56,483 bases of DNA from a virus. The notes under the pieces are model-generated. The model saw nothing but the letters and a program-made list of their open reading frames with translations, was not told the DNA's origin and ran no database searches. The position numbers were made by a program, and so were the translations under genes. Shown one piece after another: positions 11,812 to 34,946 of the stretch (position 1 is the first letter of the stretch; the number at the start of each line of letters is the position of its first letter). Location: positions 1-56,483 of IMG/VR virus record IMGVR_UViG_3300031227_000050; one strand, written 5' to 3'.

Positions 11812-14800
11812 TTATACTAAAATACAGGCCCCTCCAGCACAGGCAATTTCTTGCTCTGGCTGAGTTTCGTCTTGTTCTTCAATCATGGTTGTATAATCTA
11901 CAGGTTTAATACTATCTACTAGGTCGCAATATAACTTCCAATTGTATACATCTTTCATACAATATGTTAGTCTTTTTAGGTCACCATCAAAATACTTAAT
12001 GGCAAACTTGTTCATTTTCTCCACCATAGCACACTGTTTGGCAATTTTCATCCAAAAGGCAGAGTCTCCACCTCCATTAGTACTAATCTTAGTATTGAGC
12101 TTATCATATAGTGTAATATCACATGCTTTCCATAGGTTATCACAGGCATCTAACGCTATTTCTATCAAACCGGAGGTCCATAAGGCAGCATCTCCATATT
12201 CTCTTACAATCTCTCTTGCTGTATACACCGCAGTAAATGGAGCTTGGGCATAATCTTTGTCGCCACTCTGAGGCAATAAGGCAACACCACAAAAATACCG
12301 TTTGTTTTTGTAGATAAAATCAGCTACTTCGACCCATTCAGTTGGGGTAACAGTGATAGTATTTGATACATTATGACTGAGCCACGATTGTGTACATAGT
12401 TTTTTGTTTTTACCGGAATTAACCCAGTTACCCTGTGTGCTTTTAACAATGTCTAGTAATGCCAAGGCGGGCATTTGGTTCTTAGTTTTGGCACCATCAG
12501 GTACTTCAATAGGAAAGATGATAATATCATCAGTATCGTTAGCCGACCATACTGAACGAGTGCAGGCTTGTTGGTTGGTAGCTCTAAAATGTTGGTAAGG
12601 ATTCTCAGCTCTATTAGCTTGTAAAATACGTAAGTATCTTTTTGAATGGTGGGGGTGTAAGCTGGATGATGTACCTAATAGACACGATGATGTGCCCTCT
12701 GGTTTCATACAAGTAGTACGGGCAGCTTGATTAACTCCAATTATCTTAGCAAATGCTTTATTAGTATCAACTATGGTTTTAGCAACCGTACGTTGATTAG
12801 TAGGATTAAGTACTATGTCAAAATTTTCCATAGCTCCGGTCATAGATACGCCGAGTAGAGCTTCCCGCTGGAATATTGCTTGGGACCAGGATGTGAGGTA
12901 CTCAAGCCTGGTAAATCCTGCTTGGAGAGTACCGATAATAGCTGCCGCTCTACCTCTCTCATTAAAGTCTGCGATATCCTTGATAGTTGCGCAATTGATG
13001 GTCGAAAGGTTACATCCCTGCCATCCAGATTCAAGACCCATTTCGGTTGGTAGCGCTTTATATCCCATTCCATCATATGTCTCCATATACTTGTCATATT
13101 TCGCTTGGTCAACAATGTAATATGCCCACATGCCAATTTCAGCACATGGATTTATCAACATTTCTAAATCGTCGGTCCAAATGAAACCGGGCTCACCATG
13201 TTCTTTAACATGTTCTAATATAGCTAAGAATTCTTCCTTGGTTGTCTTGTTACGTAATAACATAACAGAATTATTTGAGCGTGCTCGCTGCCCATTTTCT
13301 TCTTTCCAGTTGCCCGTTTTGGCAGTCATCATCTCATGGTCGTCGGCCGAAAACAAACATATTGTGGATGAATTATGAACTAATATTCCATTACATAAAA
13401 AACAGCTTTCTTGTTCTACCTCGATATCATACGTGTCAATAGCATTATTTTGCTCAATGCTTAAAACACGAATAGGAACTATGTGTTGATTATGATAATA
13501 TTTATCGGCTACCCAACCAGTCATTCTTTTGTTATTTGTAGACCAAGAATGTCTCAGCCCTTTTGGATACGGCTTAGAAAACCATTTAGCCGGAAAACAA
13601 TTTGATGTTTTTTTATCGTGGGTTATTCTAGGTATTTTAGTTGCAAATCTATATTTAGATACAAACTCGATATACTGTTGTAGGTCTAGTTTGTTTAGAA
13701 TACTCACATGGTATTGGTCTTTCCAATTTGGTTTACCTTGATTACATTTCCATGTAGATACAGCTTTTAATTGTATCCTACTGATAATACCACAGCTTAA
13801 TAATAAAGATTGTAATTGTTTAGCAAAGTCTTCATAAATAGTACATGTTACACAGAAGGGTTTAACTTTTACCGAACCATCTGCATCTACTACACCTTGA
13901 ATATATGCCATTCTTATGTTTACAGAAGCCTTTTTAACAAAATCTGGTATATTAATAGGTGTATTAGGTTGTTTGATATGTGTATGAAAGTAGGTAGCTA
14001 ATTGCTTACTTTTTACTCTAACCCTATAATAATGGTCTTCGTGTGGTCTGTGTTGAACGGTTACATTTACACCAAATCTTGTCAATTGTTGGGCTACATC
14101 AACTGCTTGTTGTTTGTGTTCCTCAGCAACAGCTACAGACAAAGCCCCACTGTTATGGGTTAACTTAACATAGCCATCTCCATGAAATATTCCTAAAAAC
14201 CATGCCATTTTTTCATCTAATGGTGGTATAACAATATTTTTACATGTAGTTGAACGGGCTGGTTTTATATACTTAAAACTTGGTAGTCGTGTTGTGTTAT
14301 TGTGGTTATCAGCACGACGAATACTATATAGGTAATCGTCATCTGTTAAGTTTTTAGCATATTTCCAAGTAAATTGACCATCATAACTGTTTAACACAGC
14401 TACTCTATGATTTGGGGTACATTTTATAGTTCCATTTTGATGTTTTATTGTAACACAATTTTGTTTACCTTGACTAAAAGTGTTAATTACCCTTTTCCAT
14501 CCATTAGGTGTTGATACATAATCTCCAATGGTTACATCTTGTATATCTTTATATCCTTGTTCTTTGATTAAAACCTTTTCATCTTGTGCTATACATCTCC
14601 TAACACCACCACTTAAAACTGCATCGGATATATGCATAACAATATCATAGCAGTCTATAGGGCGTAATCTTTTTCTACCTTCTTGGTAACGACAACGTCT
14701 TAATAGAGCATCAATACGTATAATAGCACTTCTTAACCCGTTTGGCCCCGGCGCTTTGCCAACACCTGAACTTAGAAAAGAACCAGCAGGTCTAATTTGA

Positions 14801-15345
14801 GAATAATCAAAAACAACTTCGCCACATTTAGCATATTTTTCGTAAGCAGGGTCTATAACTACATCTAGGTGATTACTTAATAACACCCCAATGGTGTCAG
14901 CCCAACCCTCAATGGTATCGGGAACAACAAATGTTTCCTGATGAGAGAGAATTTCGCGCCTAAAACCAGGGAGTCTATCTACGTGTTGTTTTTGTACTGA
15001 AAATCCAGTCCCACAACCACATAATAATAACCAAAAACATTCTTGGAAAAATCGTGGTCTATCACAATAGGAACTCACACAATTATATATTCTAGCGTTC
15101 TTTTTTAGTGCTGGTGTGCCCCCAAATTGTAATGCTCTCTGTGACCCTAACACTTTCTTCTTGAGCATCATGTCGTATGCCCAGTTTATCTCTTCATCTA
15201 TACCTTTATCGTTGTAAAATTCCAACATCATATCGCGCACTCGATATACTGCTTCTTTCCAAGTCTCTCTGCGCTTCTCTTTGGCAATCCATCTGGCATA
15301 TTTAGATACAAGAGTATAATTCATTAATTCTGGTAAAGCTGACAC
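11812..15345 (-). CDS. class II (B12-dependent) ribonucleotide reductase with intein
   Basis: A 1177-residue precursor. The extein (769 residues) resembles monomeric adenosylcobalamin-dependent ribonucleoside-triphosphate reductase. It has NPCAEI with the thiyl cysteine near residue 734 and a C-terminal CAGGAC pair (1169 and 1174) that would re-reduce the active site. An intein of 408 residues sits after SGGVRR (residues 251-658) and is followed by SSTICLF. The enzyme converts NTPs to dNTPs without oxygen dependence. The start is GTG at 15345 behind AAGGAG. Confidence 0.88.
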   Translation of the reverse strand: MSALPELMNYTLVSKYARWIAKEKRRETWKEAVYRVRDMMLEFYNDKGIDEEINWAYDMMLKKKVLGSQRALQFGGTPALKKNARIYNCVSSYCDRPRFFQECFWLLLCGCGTGFSVQKQHVDRLPGFRREILSHQETFVVPDTIEGWADTIGVLLSNHLDVVIDPAYEKYAKCGEVVFDYSQIRPAGSFLSSGVGKAPGPNGLRSAIIRIDALLRRCRYQEGRKRLRPIDCYDIVMHISDAVLSGGVRRCIAQDEKVLIKEQGYKDIQDVTIGDYVSTPNGWKRVINTFSQGKQNCVTIKHQNGTIKCTPNHRVAVLNSYDGQFTWKYAKNLTDDDYLYSIRRADNHNNTTRLPSFKYIKPARSTTCKNIVIPPLDEKMAWFLGIFHGDGYVKLTHNSGALSVAVAEEHKQQAVDVAQQLTRFGVNVTVQHRPHEDHYYRVRVKSKQLATYFHTHIKQPNTPINIPDFVKKASVNIRMAYIQGVVDADGSVKVKPFCVTCTIYEDFAKQLQSLLLSCGIISRIQLKAVSTWKCNQGKPNWKDQYHVSILNKLDLQQYIEFVSKYRFATKIPRITHDKKTSNCFPAKWFSKPYPKGLRHSWSTNNKRMTGWVADKYYHNQHIVPIRVLSIEQNNAIDTYDIEVEQESCFLCNGILVHNSSTICLFSADDHEMMTAKTGNWKEENGQRARSNNSVMLLRNKTTKEEFLAILEHVKEHGEPGFIWTDDLEMLINPCAEIGMWAYYIVDQAKYDKYMETYDGMGYKALPTEMGLESGWQGCNLSTINCATIKDIADFNERGRAAAIIGTLQAGFTRLEYLTSWSQAIFQREALLGVSMTGAMENFDIVLNPTNQRTVAKTIVDTNKAFAKIIGVNQAARTTCMKPEGTSSCLLGTSSSLHPHHSKRYLRILQANRAENPYQHFRATNQQACTRSVWSANDTDDIIIFPIEVPDGAKTKNQMPALALLDIVKSTQGNWVNSGKNKKLCTQSWLSHNVSNTITVTPTEWVEVADFIYKNKRYFCGVALLPQSGDKDYAQAPFTAVYTAREIVREYGDAALWTSGLIEIALDACDNLWKACDITLYDKLNTKISTNGGGDSAFWMKIAKQCAMVEKMNKFAIKYFDGDLKRLTYCMKDVYNWKLYCDLVDSIKPVDYTTMIEEQDETQPEQEIACAGGACILV
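13372..14595 (-). mobile_element. intein with LAGLIDADG homing endonuclease in ribonucleotide reductase
   Basis: Codons 251-658 of the reductase. The N-terminal splice block starts with Cys (CIAQDEKVLI) and block B is CTPNHRVAV. The two dodecapeptide motifs are LGIFHGDGYV and IQGVVDADGSV. The C-terminal block ends FLCNGILVHN before Ser+1. The segment interrupts the conserved GGVRR-SST sequence. Splicing and homing residues look intact, so it is probably active. Confidence 0.9.
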
Positions 15346-18672: not shown

Positions 18673-19545
18673 TTACCACAGAGTACGTTCAGCGTAATCA
18701 TTTTGGTCTGGAAGAGGCTTAGGCTCTTTGTAAACTAATTCACCTGGTTTTGAAGCAGTTGGATTAGCCGCATCATCAGCAGAACCATCGGTTTGATTAG
18801 CATCATCAGAAATACTATAGTAACCAGCGTTAGTAGTAGAAGCCGTTGGAGCGGTTGACCATGCGCCACTGTAAATGTTCCAATAACCAGCTACAATAGC
18901 GGTTGCGACTCCATCGGTGAAGAGCGATTGAGCCATGTGGATACTTCTACGGTTGGTTGGGTCTGCGGCACCGGAACGCAACACAGTTTTGGAAATACCA
19001 GCAAGAGTGGTAGACACTCTACGCATAACATATGTAGCAGCAGTCATGGTAGCAAAATTACCAGCATATAGGTAATAAGTCATTGTACCAGCACCACTTG
19101 TATATGCCTTTGTAGTGGTAAAAGTATCTGTAGTAACAGCAGTAACTCTTTGGGTACCGGCTACTTCACTACTTGTGTCAGTCACATTAAGAATATCACC
19201 GGCTGATAGCCCGTGAGAAGCTAATGTATAAACTGCAACACTACTTGCAGCAGCTACGCTAGTAATACTAACAGCAGATGCAGCCCATGCGGCACTACCC
19301 ACATCGTTACCAGCCATAACCTTAGAACCGTTATTACGACGAGTATAACCTTCACCTATAGCATTCAATAGGTCTCTGTCAGAATATAATTTCTTACATC
19401 TACCAGTATTAATAGTAGGTTGAGTGGCTGGATTCTTAGAATCCGAAAAATCACCTTTTGCATTGTATGCAACCCCGGCAGCAGTATAATAAAAATCTGC
19501 CGCATCAGGATTAACAATACGATACATCGTTTGTGTGTTAGCCAT
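18673..19545 (-). CDS. putative virion structural protein with FCCH-like repeat domain
   Basis: A 290-residue protein, rich in Ala, Thr and Ser and low in charge. The middle phrase YTLASHGLSAGDILNVTDT followed by VTAVTTDTFTT is the small beta domain often found in phage tail or head-decoration proteins (resembling the E1 FCCH domain). It has its own terminator and is flanked by noncoding bases, consistent with strong late expression. The exact virion location is unknown. Confidence 0.7.
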   Translation of the reverse strand: MANTQTMYRIVNPDAADFYYTAAGVAYNAKGDFSDSKNPATQPTINTGRCKKLYSDRDLLNAIGEGYTRRNNGSKVMAGNDVGSAAWAASAVSITSVAAASSVAVYTLASHGLSAGDILNVTDTSSEVAGTQRVTAVTTDTFTTTKAYTSGAGTMTYYLYAGNFATMTAATYVMRRVSTTLAGISKTVLRSGAADPTNRRSIHMAQSLFTDGVATAIVAGYWNIYSGAWSTAPTASTTNAGYYSISDDANQTDGSADDAANPTASKPGELVYKEPKPLPDQNDYAERTLW

Positions 19546-26586: not shown

Positions 26587-27708
26587 CTAATTGTTTGTCG
26601 TCTTGCCTATTTTACCACAATTATCACAAAAGTCAAGTCTTTTTCTGGCAATTAGAATTTCTATAAGAACTCCTGCTGAACGAGTCCAAGTAAATCTATC
26701 AGCAGTAGCTATACCACTTAAGTTATTTGGTCTTTCCTGATAGCAGTATCTCATATATTCAATCAACTGGTCTTCTTCATCCATATCAATTTCGGCCCAT
26801 TCTCCTTGACCTGTAAAGAATATACCGTCGAAAGCAGTTTCCATATTAGGTGTTTCAATAAGAAAAGAGTTAACACCATCACAAAACTCTGTGTGTGCGC
26901 TATTGTTGGTAGCTATGACTGGCTTGCCACACGCCATAGATTCCAAAAGTTCTAGGTTCCACCCCTCAGCGTGACTAGGAAATACCCCACAGTCACACTG
27001 GTTGATAATTTTGGCTACATCTGTGTGGGTCGCTACTGGATTTAACAAAGTAACCTTAGAATATAACTTAGCATTAGTATACATCTTAGTCCAGTAATTA
27101 AGCTGATGTTCTCTAAGGAATGGGTTGTGTGGCATCATTACTAAATGAACATCGTCAGTAGTTTCAAACGCTTTGTCGAACGCTCGAATTAGAACGTCGT
27201 GACCCTTGCGCTTTTCCCATTTACCTATATTAAAGAAGGTATATGGTTGGTTATCTTTGTGCCTACCGTCTTTATTTGGTTTAAAAGTATTGGTATCTAC
27301 ACCACATGGTACTTTATATACTATTGAGTTAGGTACTTGGTTACATAAAATGTTTTTAGCCCATTCAGATGATGCTATAAGATAATGGGGAACACTTAGA
27401 TGCGCTAGTTCTCTAGCGTTAAATCTGTCTAGTTCAAAAAACGGCCAAGCATAATATGGTCCATTGCCTATTCTCTTAGCAAGGTCAAATTGGTGCCATA
27501 TATTAATACATGTGGCTTTTGGGTCAACCATATTTTGTTGGTATACTAGAGCCTCAAGCAACCTTTTATCTGGACCTTCTGGAATACTACCATATGGCCA
27601 AAGAGTTATGTCTATACCACCTGTTTTAAAAAGTTCTAGCGTTAGATTTTTGCCAACTACTCCATATCCTGTGTTAGATAGGCTAGTCATAAGATTAATT
27701 GGTATCAT
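26587..27708 (-). CDS. GT-B glycosyltransferase (GT4 family)
   Basis: A 373-residue protein. FNIGKWEKRKGHDVLIRAF and the donor-binding FPSHAEGWNLELLESMACGKPVIATN are GT4 signatures, including the E-x7-E motif. GT4 enzymes move sugars from nucleotide-sugar donors. The target may be phage DNA, virion or host surface. A zinc knuckle (CDNCGK) ends the protein. Confidence 0.83.
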   Translation of the reverse strand: MIPINLMTSLSNTGYGVVGKNLTLELFKTGGIDITLWPYGSIPEGPDKRLLEALVYQQNMVDPKATCINIWHQFDLAKRIGNGPYYAWPFFELDRFNARELAHLSVPHYLIASSEWAKNILCNQVPNSIVYKVPCGVDTNTFKPNKDGRHKDNQPYTFFNIGKWEKRKGHDVLIRAFDKAFETTDDVHLVMMPHNPFLREHQLNYWTKMYTNAKLYSKVTLLNPVATHTDVAKIINQCDCGVFPSHAEGWNLELLESMACGKPVIATNNSAHTEFCDGVNSFLIETPNMETAFDGIFFTGQGEWAEIDMDEEDQLIEYMRYCYQERPNNLSGIATADRFTWTRSAGVLIEILIARKRLDFCDNCGKIGKTTNN

Positions 27709-28066
27709 GTAAATATTCCTGTATACTTTGCATAGCTTCTCTGGCTGTTACCCAGAGCTTAGCTAAGTTTTTATCGTCTATTTTTTTTGAATCAATATAT
27801 GTAAAGATACAGTACCCAAGCCCTTCGTACATAATATATTCATCAATTTGTTCTACAGTTAACTTGCCTTTTGGTAATGGCTCAGGTATTTCAATTGGTG
27901 GCATACCTTTAATAGCATCTGTTACCCAGGTTCCCATACCTATGATATCGGTATCAAGATTGGTTTTAGTTTTTTTCTTTGATTTAAAATCGTGACCACA
28001 ATCTGGACACTTCTTAGTGCGTGGTCCACAACCTTTTTTACACTTTGGACAAACCTTTAGCGGCAT
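27695..28066 (-). CDS. zinc-ribbon protein
   Basis: A 123-residue protein. The first 25 residues carry two cysteine pairs (CPKCKKGCG and CPDCGHDF) that form a zinc ribbon. The rest is soluble and unrecognised. It starts 23 bases after the RNase P RNA 3' end with AAGGATGACTTAA upstream. A role linked to RNA is an open guess. Confidence 0.68.
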   Translation of the reverse strand: MPLKVCPKCKKGCGPRTKKCPDCGHDFKSKKKTKTNLDTDIIGMGTWVTDAIKGMPPIEIPEPLPKGKLTVEQIDEYIMYEGLGYCIFTYIDSKKIDDKNLAKLWVTAREAMQSIQEYLHDTN

Positions 28067-28089
28067 TTAAGTCATCCTTAAATAAAAAT

Positions 28090-28328
28090 AGTATCTCTAT
28101 AAGCGGGATTCTGTTATCAACTGTCATTTATCTCAGGCTTACGCCTGGGTTATTCACTTGCCTCTACCCGAGCATCATCGGTCTGTTCATCACCTAGCTC
28201 TGTTTGAGTTGCACCCTCGGTAGTGCGAGCGAGTTGTTCTAATTTTCTAGATAACAACTCTCCTACCTTAAACAGTAGTGTCCCGACTTTCCTCTACCGC
28301 AATGGCGGCAGCGACAGTCTGAGATACC
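28090..28328 (-). ncRNA. rnpB: RNase P RNA (bacterial type A-like, compact)
   Basis: About 239 nt. P1 pairs GGTATCTC (28321-28328) with GAGATACT (28090-28097). P2 pairs GACTGTC with GACAGTT. P3 is the hairpin CTGCCGC/GCGGTAG. P4 pairs AAGTCGGGA with TCCCGCTT, with a bulged U, as in all RNase P RNAs. Conserved blocks seen are AGGAAAGTCGGGA (CR-I), GAGATAAATGAC (near the 3' end) and ACAGAATCCCGCTTAT (CR-V). A perfect hairpin in the middle (GAGTTGTT/AACAACTC) fits P12. It would cut 5' leaders of phage tRNAs with the host protein subunit. No phage protein subunit gene is seen. Confidence 0.93.
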
Positions 28329-28549
28329 AAATCAAATATTTCCACCTTCTTAGCAATGCGGCGAAGGTCATCCTGTACATCAGTATTACCATCATCACCA
28401 CTCCATCTTCCTAGAACAAATTGCTCATAATCTAATGCTGCTGCCAACACTCTTAATTTTCTTGCATCAGATAATTTTGTACTTGCTTGTCGTTGTTCCT
28501 CTGTTGGGAAACCCGTTAAATAAGGATTAACGTCGTCTTTTTTTTCCAT
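28268..28549 (-). CDS. hypothetical protein whose 3' end overlaps the RNase P RNA
   Basis: A 93-residue acidic, helical protein; the C-terminal SQTVAAAIAVEESRDTTV is encoded inside the RNA's P2, P3 and P4 5' strands. The final 61 bases overlap the RNA. AAAGG precedes the ATG, and it overlaps the upstream gene by 23 bases. Coding is plausible, but if the RNA is the main product these codons are constrained by it. Confidence 0.58.
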   Translation of the reverse strand: MEKKDDVNPYLTGFPTEEQRQASTKLSDARKLRVLAAALDYEQFVLGRWSGDDGNTDVQDDLRRIAKKVEIFDLVSQTVAAAIAVEESRDTTV

Positions 28550-29174
28550 CTGATTTACCTTTTCTAAATGAGGTTACTAGGTCAAAACCTTTTGCTTCAA
28601 TCATTACTTTATCTGGTACATGTGGAACAACTTCTCGTTGTCCACCCAATACACCAAAGAGATACATTTCAATTTCTTGGAATGTATGATACACATCAAA
28701 CAGTCTATAGAATTTAATATCAGCTAAGACAGGATTGATATATATATTGCGAAATGTACGAATAAAATATGGAGTATGGAATTCTGTAAAAATGTCCTTA
28801 CAAATTTTGTCATGTGTTACTATACTTTCAAATGATGCTTTAAGTCTTTTAAAACTTTGAGCCATACTATCTCGTCTATGTCGTTTACAATTTGTAGTAA
28901 TAGCTTCCCAAGCAAAATCAAGGTCATAGAAATAGCCATTCGGCTCATCGCCTCCGTCCAATCGGATTACTGGATAAGCATGTCCACAAAAACCAACTAC
29001 TATAATATCATATTGTCTTTTTGCCCAAGTAGATACATAGCGATTACTTCCATACCATAACATATAATTTACACGACGCTCAATAGTTTCTTTTTTTCGA
29101 TGCCAAAAATTAACATTGTCTGATGGGTCCATCATACAGTCGTAGTAGTCATGATATTTACTTACAATTCTCAT
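28527..29174 (-). CDS. conserved phage protein of unknown function
   Basis: A 215-residue protein. The start MRIVSKYHDYYD and the later Tyr-rich, Phe-rich body match, from memory, a widespread phage family with no known role. ATG at 29174 overlaps the upstream stop as ATGA; the longer frame to 29219 duplicates part of the neighbour. Confidence 0.7.
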   Translation of the reverse strand: MRIVSKYHDYYDCMMDPSDNVNFWHRKKETIERRVNYMLWYGSNRYVSTWAKRQYDIIVVGFCGHAYPVIRLDGGDEPNGYFYDLDFAWEAITTNCKRHRRDSMAQSFKRLKASFESIVTHDKICKDIFTEFHTPYFIRTFRNIYINPVLADIKFYRLFDVYHTFQEIEMYLFGVLGGQREVVPHVPDKVMIEAKGFDLVTSFRKGKSDGKKRRR

Positions 29175-29470
29175 TTCATTAATCCAATACCTATAATAGA
29201 TAATGCAACACCAATCCATTGTAAAATGGTAAAATTTTTACCTGCTCCCAGATATATCATACCACTATAAAATCCAATTAGAATCATCAAATCAAAGATG
29301 ATACCATCTCGCAATACATTTTTAGAATAGTAAGCTATCAGTGGCCATAAGCCAAATGCCTGTAATACAAATAGTAAACCAACGTATTTAATTTGTTGTG
29401 TGTCGTTACAAGCCTTACTTGCCCACGCATAAAAGAAATAGTAGATTATTGCTACTGGTATCCAATACAT
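29171..29470 (-). CDS. membrane protein, DMT/SMR-like
   Basis: A 99-residue protein with about four hydrophobic helices. The last segment, ILQWIGVALSIIGIGLMK, resembles the final helix of the drug/metabolite transporter superfamily (EamA/SMR type). It may export or import a small molecule, but the family assignment is loose. Confidence 0.55.
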   Translation of the reverse strand: MYWIPVAIIYYFFYAWASKACNDTQQIKYVGLLFVLQAFGLWPLIAYYSKNVLRDGIIFDLMILIGFYSGMIYLGAGKNFTILQWIGVALSIIGIGLMK

Positions 29471-30114: not shown

Positions 30115-31202
30115 TCGAATATCCTATTGTGAGTTCTGTTTACACGAACAAAGGAGGCACAGTCTCCTAAGTATCTTAAATCAGTTGCTCCAACATAGGC
30201 GCAACAACTGCGCAGTCCTCCTACGATTTCCTTTAGTATATCTGCAACTGGTCCTTTGTATGGCACTGATACTTTTTTACCTTCAGATGCAGTGTAATCC
30301 TTACGACCATTATGTTTGTCTTGGGCTGAGTAGGAAGACATACCATAGAAACTTAATGCCTTTTTGCCTCCCCGTCTTTCTTCTCTAATACTAATACCAA
30401 GCGTAGGATGTGTAGTACGTTCCCATTTGACATCATATTCCCATTCTCCATCACACTCGTCTGTCCCCGTCAGCATTCCGCCCACCATAACAAAGTCTGC
30501 GCCCGCCGCAAACGCTTTGCAAATATCTCCGGGGGTTCGACAGCCACCATCTGCACAGATTAAACCAAGGCGTCCCTCGTCGCTCTTGCGGCCATGTGCG
30601 GCGTCGGCACACTCCATGATTGCGGAAAGCTGAGGATAGCCCACACCGGCCACCAGTCTCGTAGTACACACACTCCCGCCACCAACTCCAATCTTAACTA
30701 TATCAGCACCATGGTCGATTAACCGTTCGACCATATTAGGGGTACATACATTGCCGGCTATAATAGTAAGCTCTTTACCATGTTTTTCGCGCATCTTAGA
30801 TACCAACTCAAGAAACTGATTTGTGTATCCATTAGCAACATCTAAACACACATATTTTGGAGGCATGTTATGGTTCATGGCATCCATACCGAAGCTTTCT
30901 ATATTATATCCGTCTTGTTGGTCTGTTAATGATTGTCCCATTTTATCAAGCACAGAATAATGTTTGTGTAATACGCAACCCATTTGATGGTCGCGCATCA
31001 CCTTGGCCATAGCAAACGTACCAGTAGTATCCATATTAGCCGCCAAGATAGGGACACCTTTCCATACATTAGACGAATGATAAAACTTAAACTCTCTAAC
31101 AAGGTTTACTGCTTTCCTACTAGCATTGATGCTACTCTTTGGTACAATAAGAACATCATCGAAGTCTAGTTTGACCCCATCTAAGATTTGTGCTTGTCCC
31201 AT
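30111..31202 (-). CDS. guaC: GMP reductase (IMP dehydrogenase/GMP reductase family)
   Basis: A 363-residue protein. The active-site loop GGGSVCTTRLVAGVGYPQL has the catalytic Cys. ADGGCRTPGDICKAFAAGADF and FYGMSSYSAQD are characteristic of GuaC. The enzyme converts GMP to IMP with NADPH, feeding purine salvage and host RNA breakdown products into dNTP synthesis. Its start overlaps the end of the split RNA ligase gene. Confidence 0.88.
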   Translation of the reverse strand: MGQAQILDGVKLDFDDVLIVPKSSINASRKAVNLVREFKFYHSSNVWKGVPILAANMDTTGTFAMAKVMRDHQMGCVLHKHYSVLDKMGQSLTDQQDGYNIESFGMDAMNHNMPPKYVCLDVANGYTNQFLELVSKMREKHGKELTIIAGNVCTPNMVERLIDHGADIVKIGVGGGSVCTTRLVAGVGYPQLSAIMECADAAHGRKSDEGRLGLICADGGCRTPGDICKAFAAGADFVMVGGMLTGTDECDGEWEYDVKWERTTHPTLGISIREERRGGKKALSFYGMSSYSAQDKHNGRKDYTASEGKKVSVPYKGPVADILKEIVGGLRSCCAYVGATDLRYLGDCASFVRVNRTHNRIFE

Positions 31203-32398
31203 TACTTGCCGTCCGTCCCGCCCTTTCGGGCCAAATAATCTGCGCTTACACTCTTCAAGATAACCCGTCCCAATATAGGAACAGTACGGTCTATAACTGG
31301 TTTGATTACTACTCCTTCGCGCCCTTTAAACTTACTCTTGGGATTTTCACATACCTCAGTAAGCCCATCGGTAAGCTCCCTAACTATCTCAGGAGAGTAG
31401 GTACCTATATATAGCTCTGGTACATGAGGAATACTATATTGATGACAAAGTTCTCTTACGTTTTGCCACATGATAAACTTACCACCAATGGTGATGTCAA
31501 ATACAGAAAAAGCTTTTGGCCCATCGTACTGCATATCCTGAATATCTTCTCCGTAAATCTCCCCATAGATAACTATAGGCTTCTGGTATAAGGTAAATAA
31601 GTCAGCCAACATCTTTTTGACTGGTGGATACTTCATGGGTGACCAATACAGACACTCATTACCATTAGTATCCTCTTGCTTACGGCGAGTATTATGAGAG
31701 CCCGCCATGAAAGTTGGTACCATCTCTCCATTCTCATCTGCATCTAGAGCAATGCCCAATCTACAGTTTGTATTGTGTACTATTATTCCTGACGCTACAA
31801 AATTATGGGTATCTTTAATTTGTAGGTCATATCTTTTATAAGACTGAACTAATTTTTTCTTCTTAATAAGTTTCATTTTTGTAACTTCTTTTTGTAAAAG
31901 GTCTTTAATATATCCTCTATAAATAGGTTTTAAATTATGTTGTTCAATTACTTCTTTGGTTAAATTTAAATGAACCCGTTGACCTACCTTTTGCTTGTTT
32001 TGCAATGTCAGATAACCTAATTTTCTATCTTTAACTATATGTAAAAGAATATAATCAGGCTCGGTTATTATATGCATTTCATATATTGGTTCTAGAACAT
32101 CAAAATTATATCTTGCAAATATCAATGGTTGTTTTGGATAATGAGGATAATTTGGACTAATAGTAGAACTATCTTTATCTATCATAGTGGTACTTTTAAC
32201 CTCAGCTTTCAATATTTTATTTGCTATAGATATATATACATCTCCTCCTTTACCATCTTTTTTTCTATGTCCATTAAATGCTAAAGCCACCAAACCTTCT
32301 GATATTTTTTCTGGCAAATTTGGTTTACGCTCATTTATATCAAAACATTTTCTATATGCTATATAAGCATTACACATTTCTCGTATTAATATAGGCAT
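31202..32398 (-). CDS. restriction-endonuclease-like domain fused to C-intein and RNA ligase C-terminal half
   Basis: A 398-residue polypeptide in three parts. Residues 1-174 resemble a small type II restriction endonuclease, possibly of the Bsp6I type, with the PD-(D/E)XK-like set GGDVYI and KAEVKST. Residues 175-209 are a C-intein starting at a Met and ending GIIVHN before Thr210. Residues 210-398 are the C-terminal part of an RNA ligase (TNCRLGIALD, EGVVIKP, VILKSVSADY). It must join the N-terminal half at 34116-34946 by trans-splicing. Confidence 0.8.
   Translation of the reverse strand: MPILIREMCNAYIAYRKCFDINERKPNLPEKISEGLVALAFNGHRKKDGKGGDVYISIANKILKAEVKSTTMIDKDSSTISPNYPHYPKQPLIFARYNFDVLEPIYEMHIITEPDYILLHIVKDRKLGYLTLQNKQKVGQRVHLNLTKEVIEQHNLKPIYRGYIKDLLQKEVTKMKLIKKKKLVQSYKRYDLQIKDTHNFVASGIIVHNTNCRLGIALDADENGEMVPTFMAGSHNTRRKQEDTNGNECLYWSPMKYPPVKKMLADLFTLYQKPIVIYGEIYGEDIQDMQYDGPKAFSVFDITIGGKFIMWQNVRELCHQYSIPHVPELYIGTYSPEIVRELTDGLTEVCENPKSKFKGREGVVIKPVIDRTVPILGRVILKSVSADYLARKGGTDGK
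31772..31876 (-). mobile_element. C-terminal split intein fragment
   Basis: 35 codons, M175-N209 of the 31202-32398 product. It opens MKLIKKKKLVQSYKRYDLQI and ends THNFVASGIIVHN, with +1 Thr. Length and shape match C-inteins of natural split inteins. It pairs with the N-intein at 34119-34415. Confidence 0.85.
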
Positions 32399-34123: not shown

Positions 34124-34946
34124 TAGATTCTCCCAAAACGATATGATTTTCTGTTAAATCTCGGGCTTTTATCCAGCCATCGGTAGTCAATACCGGATGG
34201 TCTTCGGTACAAACCAATGTCTGCCCATTATCAAACTCAAGTTCAAACCAATCTAATTGGTCGGTTTCATCCTGAACTAACACTCCCTCAACATCTGAGT
34301 GTGTAAATAACCCCTTGTCTACATCATATGTTTTAACTTTTTCTCCAACCACAATATCTTTGATGGGTTTTTGTGTACCATCAGACATAGTTACTAAAGA
34401 GTCTTCACGAAGACACCCATGAATCTTCTCAGTTATTACTACTTCTTCATCCTCTAACCACACATCAGGATAATTACCCCAATGTTCTATAGAAGTATAC
34501 TTAGGAAACTGAGGATTGTCTTTCATCACATCACCCTGGGTAGACTTAACGGGTGGTTCCCATTTGGTGATACCTAATGCATCTATTACATCAGCACTAT
34601 CTATTTTAGTATTACCATTATTCGAAGTATATTCTAAGAACGATTTCATCGTCATTATTGTTCCATATGATACTTCACCTCTCAGCCTAGCTGCTTTTAC
34701 TCTCCGAGCATTTGTGTTAAATGACTTAGGTAACTCTGCACAATACTTAGTAATGTTCAGGTACTCATGTAATAGTGCAGGAAGAATAGCATCTGGTGGG
34801 ATGAACACAACTAAGTCTCCGGGACTCAATAGGTCTTTCTGTACTATAACAGACCATCCTTTGACCGTAGCTATTTCTAGCCGGTCTGCATTGGGGTGGG
34901 GCTGAATATCCTTAACGGATGTTATTTCAACGATTAGCTTTGACAT
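34116..34946 (-). CDS. RNA ligase N-terminal half fused to N-intein
   Basis: A 276-residue polypeptide. Residues 1-177 are the N-terminal extein, starting with an OB-like domain (VEITSVKDIQPHPNADRLEI) and reaching the ligase active site VITEKIHG, with the nucleotidyl lysine at about 174. Residues 178-276 are an N-intein. The gene ends there, so the ligase is complete only after trans-splicing with 31202-32398. GAGGAACACA precedes the ATG. Confidence 0.85.
   Translation of the reverse strand: MSKLIVEITSVKDIQPHPNADRLEIATVKGWSVIVQKDLLSPGDLVVFIPPDAILPALLHEYLNITKYCAELPKSFNTNARRVKAARLRGEVSYGTIMTMKSFLEYTSNNGNTKIDSADVIDALGITKWEPPVKSTQGDVMKDNPQFPKYTSIEHWGNYPDVWLEDEEVVITEKIHGCLREDSLVTMSDGTQKPIKDIVVGEKVKTYDVDKGLFTHSDVEGVLVQDETDQLDWFELEFDNGQTLVCTEDHPVLTTDGWIKARDLTENHIVLGESSV
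34119..34415 (-). mobile_element. N-terminal split intein fragment
   Basis: 99 codons. Block A begins with Cys (CLREDSLVTMSDGTQKPI) and block B is TLVCTEDHPVLTTDGW. It lies exactly at the K-x-H-G/T-N active-site motif of the RNA ligase. No endonuclease domain is present; about 2.2 kb with three other coding units separates it from its C-intein. Confidence 0.87.

Follow-up and report, generated by a model that had tools for sequence, protein, structure and literature searches.

A phage-encoded RNase P RNA without the specificity domain and its relatives in large phages

Analysis of a linear virus record from IMG/VR, 56,483 bases long (the whole stretch of DNA analysed, hereafter the window) revealed an RNase P RNA gene, an identification made from the sequence through a covariance-model match and strong covariation in relatives. 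The RNA is 247 nt long and is essentially the catalytic domain (C-domain), with the specificity domain (S-domain) missing. We put the probability at roughly 75% that the locus is a working minimal RNase P RNA of type-A-like bacterial ancestry that has lost its S-domain and cuts phage pre-tRNAs; its transcription, catalysis, protein partner and substrate are inferred. RNase P RNA is regarded as a cellular gene. The original prediction, that this phage encodes one, is borne out by a full-length match to RF00010, covariation in relatives and phage genes on either side.

The window RNA and its locus

When the whole 56,483-base window was compared with all 4227 Rfam families, the model of bacterial class A RNase P RNA (RF00010) matched positions 28084–28330 on the minus strand over its entire length (model positions 1–367 of 367), with 70.7 bits and E=1.7e-19. 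This was the top-scoring RNA match of the window, the window tRNAs ranking below it. A full-length minus-strand match of this kind had been named beforehand as confirmation and was obtained, although the score lies under the RF00010 gathering score of 100 bits, so that default Rfam annotation passes over the RNA. Phage RNAs of this type escape annotation because the curated thresholds presuppose a complete S-domain. The MFE z-score of the RNA was -3.9, and the MFE fold itself differs from the RNase P fold.

P1, P2, P3, CR-I and CR-V were located on the minus strand as originally claimed, and P4 forms with the predicted single-U bulge (Table 1). The RNA thus has the features common to all RNase P RNA types, P4 with a bulged U and the core pseudoknot of P2 and P4, together with the class A features P6 pseudoknot, P15 GGU loop and P18. 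It fails two class A criteria, namely a score of at least 100 bits and the S-domain (P8–P14, CR-II, CR-III). In cellular RNase P RNA, P8–P14 constitute the specificity domain, which binds the T-stem/loop of the pre-tRNA. The P7 strands of the window RNA are separated by just 39 nt, enough for one hairpin, which means that P8–P14 are missing; CR-II and CR-III were looked for in the window RNA and were absent. Because the S-domain was tested and found absent, the RNA falls outside standard class A. The earlier suggestion that parts of P13–P14 and P16–P18 are missing was correct for P13–P14, which are gone with the rest of P8–P14, but not for P18, which is there (28147–28134).

Table 1. Coordinates of the window RNA, its structural elements and neighbouring genes
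Feature	Position	Strand	Remark
S-domain-less RNase P RNA gene	28084..28330	-	complete RF00010 match
P1 5' strand GGTATCTC	28321..28328	-	pairs with GAGATACT 28090-28097; 8/8 pairs changed on both sides
P2 5' strand GACTGTC	28313..28319	-	pairs with GACAGTT 28119-28125
P3 hairpin	28294..28311	-	
CR-I GAGGAAAGTCGGGA, including P4 5' strand and bulged U	28281..28294	-	
P5 5' strand CACT	28277..28280	-	pairs with GGTG 28212-28215
P6 pseudoknot 5' strand CTGTT	28271..28275	-	pairs with AACAG 28183-28187
P7 (GGTAG/CTACC) around single hairpin replacing the S-domain	28219..28267	-	
P15-P17 region, GGU loop (GGGTA 28165-28169), P6 3' strand	28162..28208	-	
P18 hairpin, GUAA tetraloop	28134..28147	-	
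CR-V ACAGAATCCCGCTTAT, including P4 3' strand	28099..28114	-	
Upstream 93-aa ORF	28268..28549	-	end overlaps 5' part of RNA
Upstream phage gene, PHROG 4243	28527..29219	-	
Downstream phage gene, PHROG 17752, Cys-rich N-terminus	27695..28066	-	
Phage glycosyltransferase, PHROG 2170	26587..27708	-	

The RNA sits between the PHROG 4243 and PHROG 17752 genes. The 93-aa ORF that overlaps it has no Pfam or PHROG match, and its final 21 codons coincide with the P1–P6 5' half of the RNA. Elsewhere the window carries phage genes for a DnaB-like helicase, a primase, a UvsX-like recombinase, a PD-(D/E)XK exonuclease, two RNA ligases, an ATP-dependent DNA ligase, a sigma factor and a ribonucleotide reductase with an intein. 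The fragment yielded no PF03237 terminase. The intein of the ribonucleotide reductase is of the LAGLIDADG type, and an RNA ligase ORF also contains an intein-splicing motif (window 11812–15345 and 31202–32398, minus strand).

A family of S-domain-less RNAs

IMG/VR and 84,980 species genomes were scanned with patterns, and annotated phages were searched by BLAST. Once duplicates and S-domain-bearing copies had been dropped, 38 distinct S-domain-less cores (the window and 37 further) remained, with a median pairwise identity of 0.55. Viral records of up to 642 kb account for 35 cores (34 without the window) and genome assemblies for three. Of 35 virus records searched for a PF03237 terminase, 11 had one; many of the 35 are fragments. 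S-domain-bearing RNase P RNAs from further large contigs of IMG/VR (e.g. G005, G013, G044) were excluded, their phage status being unsettled. The members include an isolated phage, Stenotrophomonas phage DLP6 (KU682439.2, 105774–106022; RF00010 E=3.3e-17), and a huge phage, the 642,428-bp record LR756502.1 (614639–614843), whose RNA was missed by the RF00010 search and matched the archaeal model RF00373 (E=3.6e-8).

Several candidates were rejected. The BLAST leads Agrobacterium phage Atu_ph04, Streptomyces phage Byblos and LR745208.1 had no RF00010 match, and Microcystis phage MaAM05 carries a 400-nt cellular-type RNA near fabI, engB and mtgA that is probably host DNA. Two contigs contained only isolated CR-V and P1 matches of 44–49 nt (G035 34680–34723, G046 19060–19108), which are incomplete RNAs and possibly attachment sites at the 3' end of a host rnpB. 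Separately, two near-identical phage RNase P RNAs (L032 and L046), both within arrays of 29–34 tRNAs and both undetected by RF00010, differ in that the P7 hairpin of one is enlarged by an insert of about 80 nt.

To evaluate structural selection, a 12-sequence alignment was scored against the structure drawn up for the window RNA. Paired cells made up 88.2% compared with 63.2% after shuffling, both sides had changed in 44 of 57 pairs compared with 26.6 in shuffles, and the covariation score was 0.639 against 0.193 in shuffles, falling to 0.08–0.12 when partners were slid by 1–3 columns. The structure was taken from the window and is hence favoured over the slid versions. Among individual helices, 97.9% of cells paired in P4, 100% in P5 and 96.7% in P6; P18 aligned poorly across the set and is not kept in every relative.

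A strand-swap test, in which 3' strands were exchanged among the 38 cores as the null, gave pairing in 34/38 cores for P4 (4 bp; null mean 7.7, maximum 15), 36/38 for P5 (mean 8.1, maximum 16), 28/37 for P6 (mean 4.7, maximum 11) and 24/38 for P2 (6 bp; mean 1.7, maximum 5). The P2/P4 pairing, whose failure in related phages would have spoken against the original prediction, therefore holds. P7 sequences were too similar for the test to discriminate. By a loose test, GGT was found in the P15 region of all 38 cores. The covariation in the 12-sequence alignment indicates purifying selection on the RNA.

P4 itself varies within the family. An alternative core pattern (GAGGAAGTTC ... ACAGAANNNNGNCTAC), prompted by LR756502.1 and DLP6 and with four P4 positions left as N, matched 18 viral stretches (12 distinct), and the open positions were complementary in 18/18. 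Compared with the usual core, an A-U pair is replaced by G-C and a G-C pair by U-G or U-A, beside the bulge; the bulge is retained as one of two adjacent U's. The covaried P4 (GAGGAAGTTC ... CTAC) occurs in 14 of the 38 cores.

The gene is patchy among phages. None of 37 records related to the window by DnaB (55–100% identity; several >190 kb) had an RF00010 match, nor did any relative by the glycosyltransferase, and no second viral contig was found with an exact 19-mer of the window RNA. The absence of matches in the DnaB-related records makes the RNase P RNA an accessory trait. Since RF00010 can overlook diverged members, as it did LR756502.1, the distribution count is a lower bound.

Cellular occurrences bear on whether the window RNA could be host or contaminant DNA, or else a non-functional copy in decay. 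With the pattern used, only three of the 84,980 species genomes carried the S-less form: two MAGs of Gemmataceae (L232, L234) and one isolate, Achromobacter anxifer LMG 26857 (L236). This pattern covered only the canonical core and a limited length range, and cellular cases beyond it are not excluded. In Achromobacter anxifer the S-less copy lies within an array of more than 30 tRNAs; its contig, 487 kb in length, also encodes a TraD-like protein, an RNA ligase and a thymidylate synthase, and a normal RNase P RNA copy (202 bits) is present elsewhere. In one Gemmataceae MAG (L234/L241) the S-less RNA adjoins a tRNA-Thr (AGT) and has cellular neighbour genes, and no full-size RNase P RNA copy was seen there. 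An origin of the S-less form in Gemmataceae was considered and rejected: of 61 genomes from the family, 52 scored above the Rfam cut-off, nearly all with RNAs of 360–640 nt. The S-less form is hence not the family norm, and the L234 copy looks transferred, in an unknown direction. Three of the nine species-genome matches (L231, L233, L238) were chance matches, and three others (L230, L235, L237) look like reduced cellular RNAs. One of the latter, from a Candidatus Methylopumilus MAG (L230), is the sole RNase P RNA found there, at 236 nt and by eye without CR-II/CR-III, a possible cellular S-domain reduction.

That Gemmataceae copy among cellular genes, and certain IMG/VR RNase P matches that are clearly cellular-type (high score, contig ends), give the contaminant explanation what support it has. 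With phage genes on both flanks of the window RNA, the rarity of the form in the species genomes under the pattern used and the normal additional copy in Achromobacter, we regard it as very improbable, and a decaying copy is contradicted by the covariation.

tRNA neighbours, protein subunit and proposed function

Across the family, the RNA is strongly linked to tRNA genes. A tRNA or tmRNA lies within 300 nt at 24/38 loci and within 1 kb at 26/38, and every one of the 296 tRNAs and tmRNAs within 2.5 kb is on the same strand as the RNA. One locus (L120) has 37 tRNAs. In DLP6, within a 30-tRNA cluster, the RNA match stops 3 nt short of a tRNA-Arg; we infer that an RNase P cut of this tRNA would define the RNA 3' end too. 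Predicted tmRNAs are also present at the phage loci L041, L111, L115, L133 and L144, and tRNAs with a predicted CTA anticodon (amber-suppressor or Pyl-like) lie near the RNase P RNA at L130 and L144.

The window differs from most relatives in that its RNA is not within a tRNA array: its 18 tRNAs, which all lie on the minus strand, are spread out and come no closer to the RNA than 8.6 kb. The original inference that the phage supplies a ribozyme for its own tRNA array is thus well supported for the family but not by the position of the window copy. None of the 18 window tRNA genes encodes a 3' CCA, and CT follows many of them. Without an encoded CCA, the GGU loop would come into play only once CCA has been added, if ever; the absence is compatible with a minimal RNase P RNA.

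The distance of the window copy from tRNAs also leaves room for a specialised RNase P directed at other phage transcripts (polycistronic mRNA, small RNAs) or at tRNAs without a good T-loop. Substrate choice should relax once the domain that binds the T-stem/loop is gone, and some loci have tmRNA or odd tRNAs. Against this, RNAs at 24 of the 38 loci lie within 300 nt of tRNAs, often abutting them, and we consider a specialised role unlikely.

RnpA (PF00825) was absent from 63 of the 64 virus and phage records searched, the window included, in a search that was positive in 10 of 14 control genomes; some of the records hold only cellular-type RNase P copies or none. This fits the earlier expectation that the protein subunit probably comes from the host. 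The exception, LR756502.1, carries RnpA at 525189–525473 (locus L242; PF00825 E=3.4e-14, motif KKFKRAVDRNRVKRLMRES), which also matched solved RnpA structures (E=4e-6), and a whole RNase P may thus be encoded by this phage. RnpA also occurs on another viral contig, L276 (3001–3282; PF00825 E=1.3e-10); no RNase P RNA was found on this 24.9-kb fragment with RF00373, and a single-sequence AlphaFold model of the protein reached a pLDDT of only 49.7 and was disregarded. Its gene adjoins PARG, adenylate kinase and CoaE genes. Some phages may bring both RNase P subunits.

In the preferred reading, a working minimal RNase P RNA, the RNA would be transcribed along with neighbouring phage genes in infection and would assemble with host RnpA, or in LR756502.1 probably with phage RnpA. 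The retained parts (P4, the P2/P4 and P6 pseudoknots and the P15 GGU loop) would cut and would grip the acceptor end of the substrate. The assembled enzyme is proposed to trim the 5' leaders of phage pre-tRNAs, plus tmRNA where present, and so may supplement or bypass host RNase P.

Work on the E. coli RNA shows that the C-domain alone cleaves, less efficiently and likely aided by a P6-like contact, that the P15–17 region touches the substrate 3' end, and that S-domain deletion costs almost 500-fold on a model substrate (PMC5839562). Exactly these C-domain parts, P6 and the P15–17 region, are retained by the phage RNAs. The roughly 500-fold loss without the S-domain counts against a working ribozyme, as do the tRNA distance in the window, the absence from DnaB relatives and the ORF overlap.

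A mimic of the C-domain could instead serve as a decoy that titrates host RnpA or blocks host RNase P, with no need for cutting. Phages often switch off host functions. A decoy would fit that habit, the shortening of the RNA relative to the cellular form and the lack of RnpA in most of these phages. However, it should require neither the active site in P4 nor the GGU loop of P15, yet P4 pairs are under selection and GGT is retained throughout by the loose test; position inside phage tRNA arrays argues for tRNA processing, and an RNase P block would hurt the phage's own tRNAs. We therefore rate the decoy as improbable, marginally more so than a specialised enzyme.

Comparison with known RNase P RNAs

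The phage S-less RNase P RNA family seems to be previously unreported. Searches of open-licence full texts turned up no description of a phage RNase P RNA, subscription papers being outside this coverage. Keyword checks found no mention of a phage RNase P RNA in overviews of huge and jumbo phages (PMC7162821, PMC7824862, PMC13282480) and none of an RNase P RNA in the DLP6 genome paper, which describes 30 tRNAs.

It is an evenly balanced proposition that large phages own a viral RNase P class, S-less, with a remodelled P4 in more than one third, usually located in tRNA arrays, and joined in at least one megaphage (LR756502.1) by a protein subunit to give a complete viral RNase P. If so, such an enzyme could free tRNA 5' maturation from the host. 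If the RNAs are functional, one of the oldest ribozymes has a place in viral genomes, tRNA 5' maturation joins the phage translation toolkit, and a way in which large phages operate big tRNA arrays is suggested. The family provides natural bacterial-type ribozymes without an S-domain and covaried versions of an otherwise near-constant P4, through which questions of S-domain role and P4 identity become directly testable; the isolated phage DLP6 opens the way to genetics.

Bacterial class A RNA (RF00010) shares with the window RNA P1–P5, the bulged-U P4, the P2/P4 pseudoknot, P6, the P15 GGU loop, P18, CR-I and CR-V. The phage RNA differs in lacking P8–P14, CR-II and CR-III, in its length of 247 nt and sub-cut-off score, in its location on a phage genome and, across the family, in the covaried P4 of 14/38 cores. 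Bacterial class B has an L5.1/L15.1 contact instead of P6, whereas P6 is there in the window RNA and covaries.

Archaeal RNase P operates with several archaeal proteins. Among natural RNAs, the minimal RNase P RNA of the archaeon Pyrobaculum comes nearest (PMC4919922). According to Lai et al. 2010, as cited in PMC4919922 and PMC5839562, this RNA of Thermoproteaceae (type T, alias type P) has a degenerate S-domain and a modelled P6 and is reported to lack P18. A degenerate S-domain in a natural RNA and P6 are thus shared with the window RNA, but type T/P is archaeal, cellular and without P18, whereas the window RNA is bacterial-type and viral with P18 at 28134–28147. We infer that S-domain loss in the phage RNAs was likely independent.

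The reduced RNase P RNAs of CPR bacteria (PMC8172020) have likewise lost helices and score below Rfam thresholds; they are cellular, many without P13, P14, P16 and P17 and a few without P12, whereas the phage RNAs lose the entire S-domain. The engineered E. coli C-domain RNA (CP RPR; PMC5839562) keeps the same domain and is active without the S-domain; it is artificial and likely relies on a P6-like contact, whereas the phage RNAs are natural, with a P7 hairpin and a real P6.
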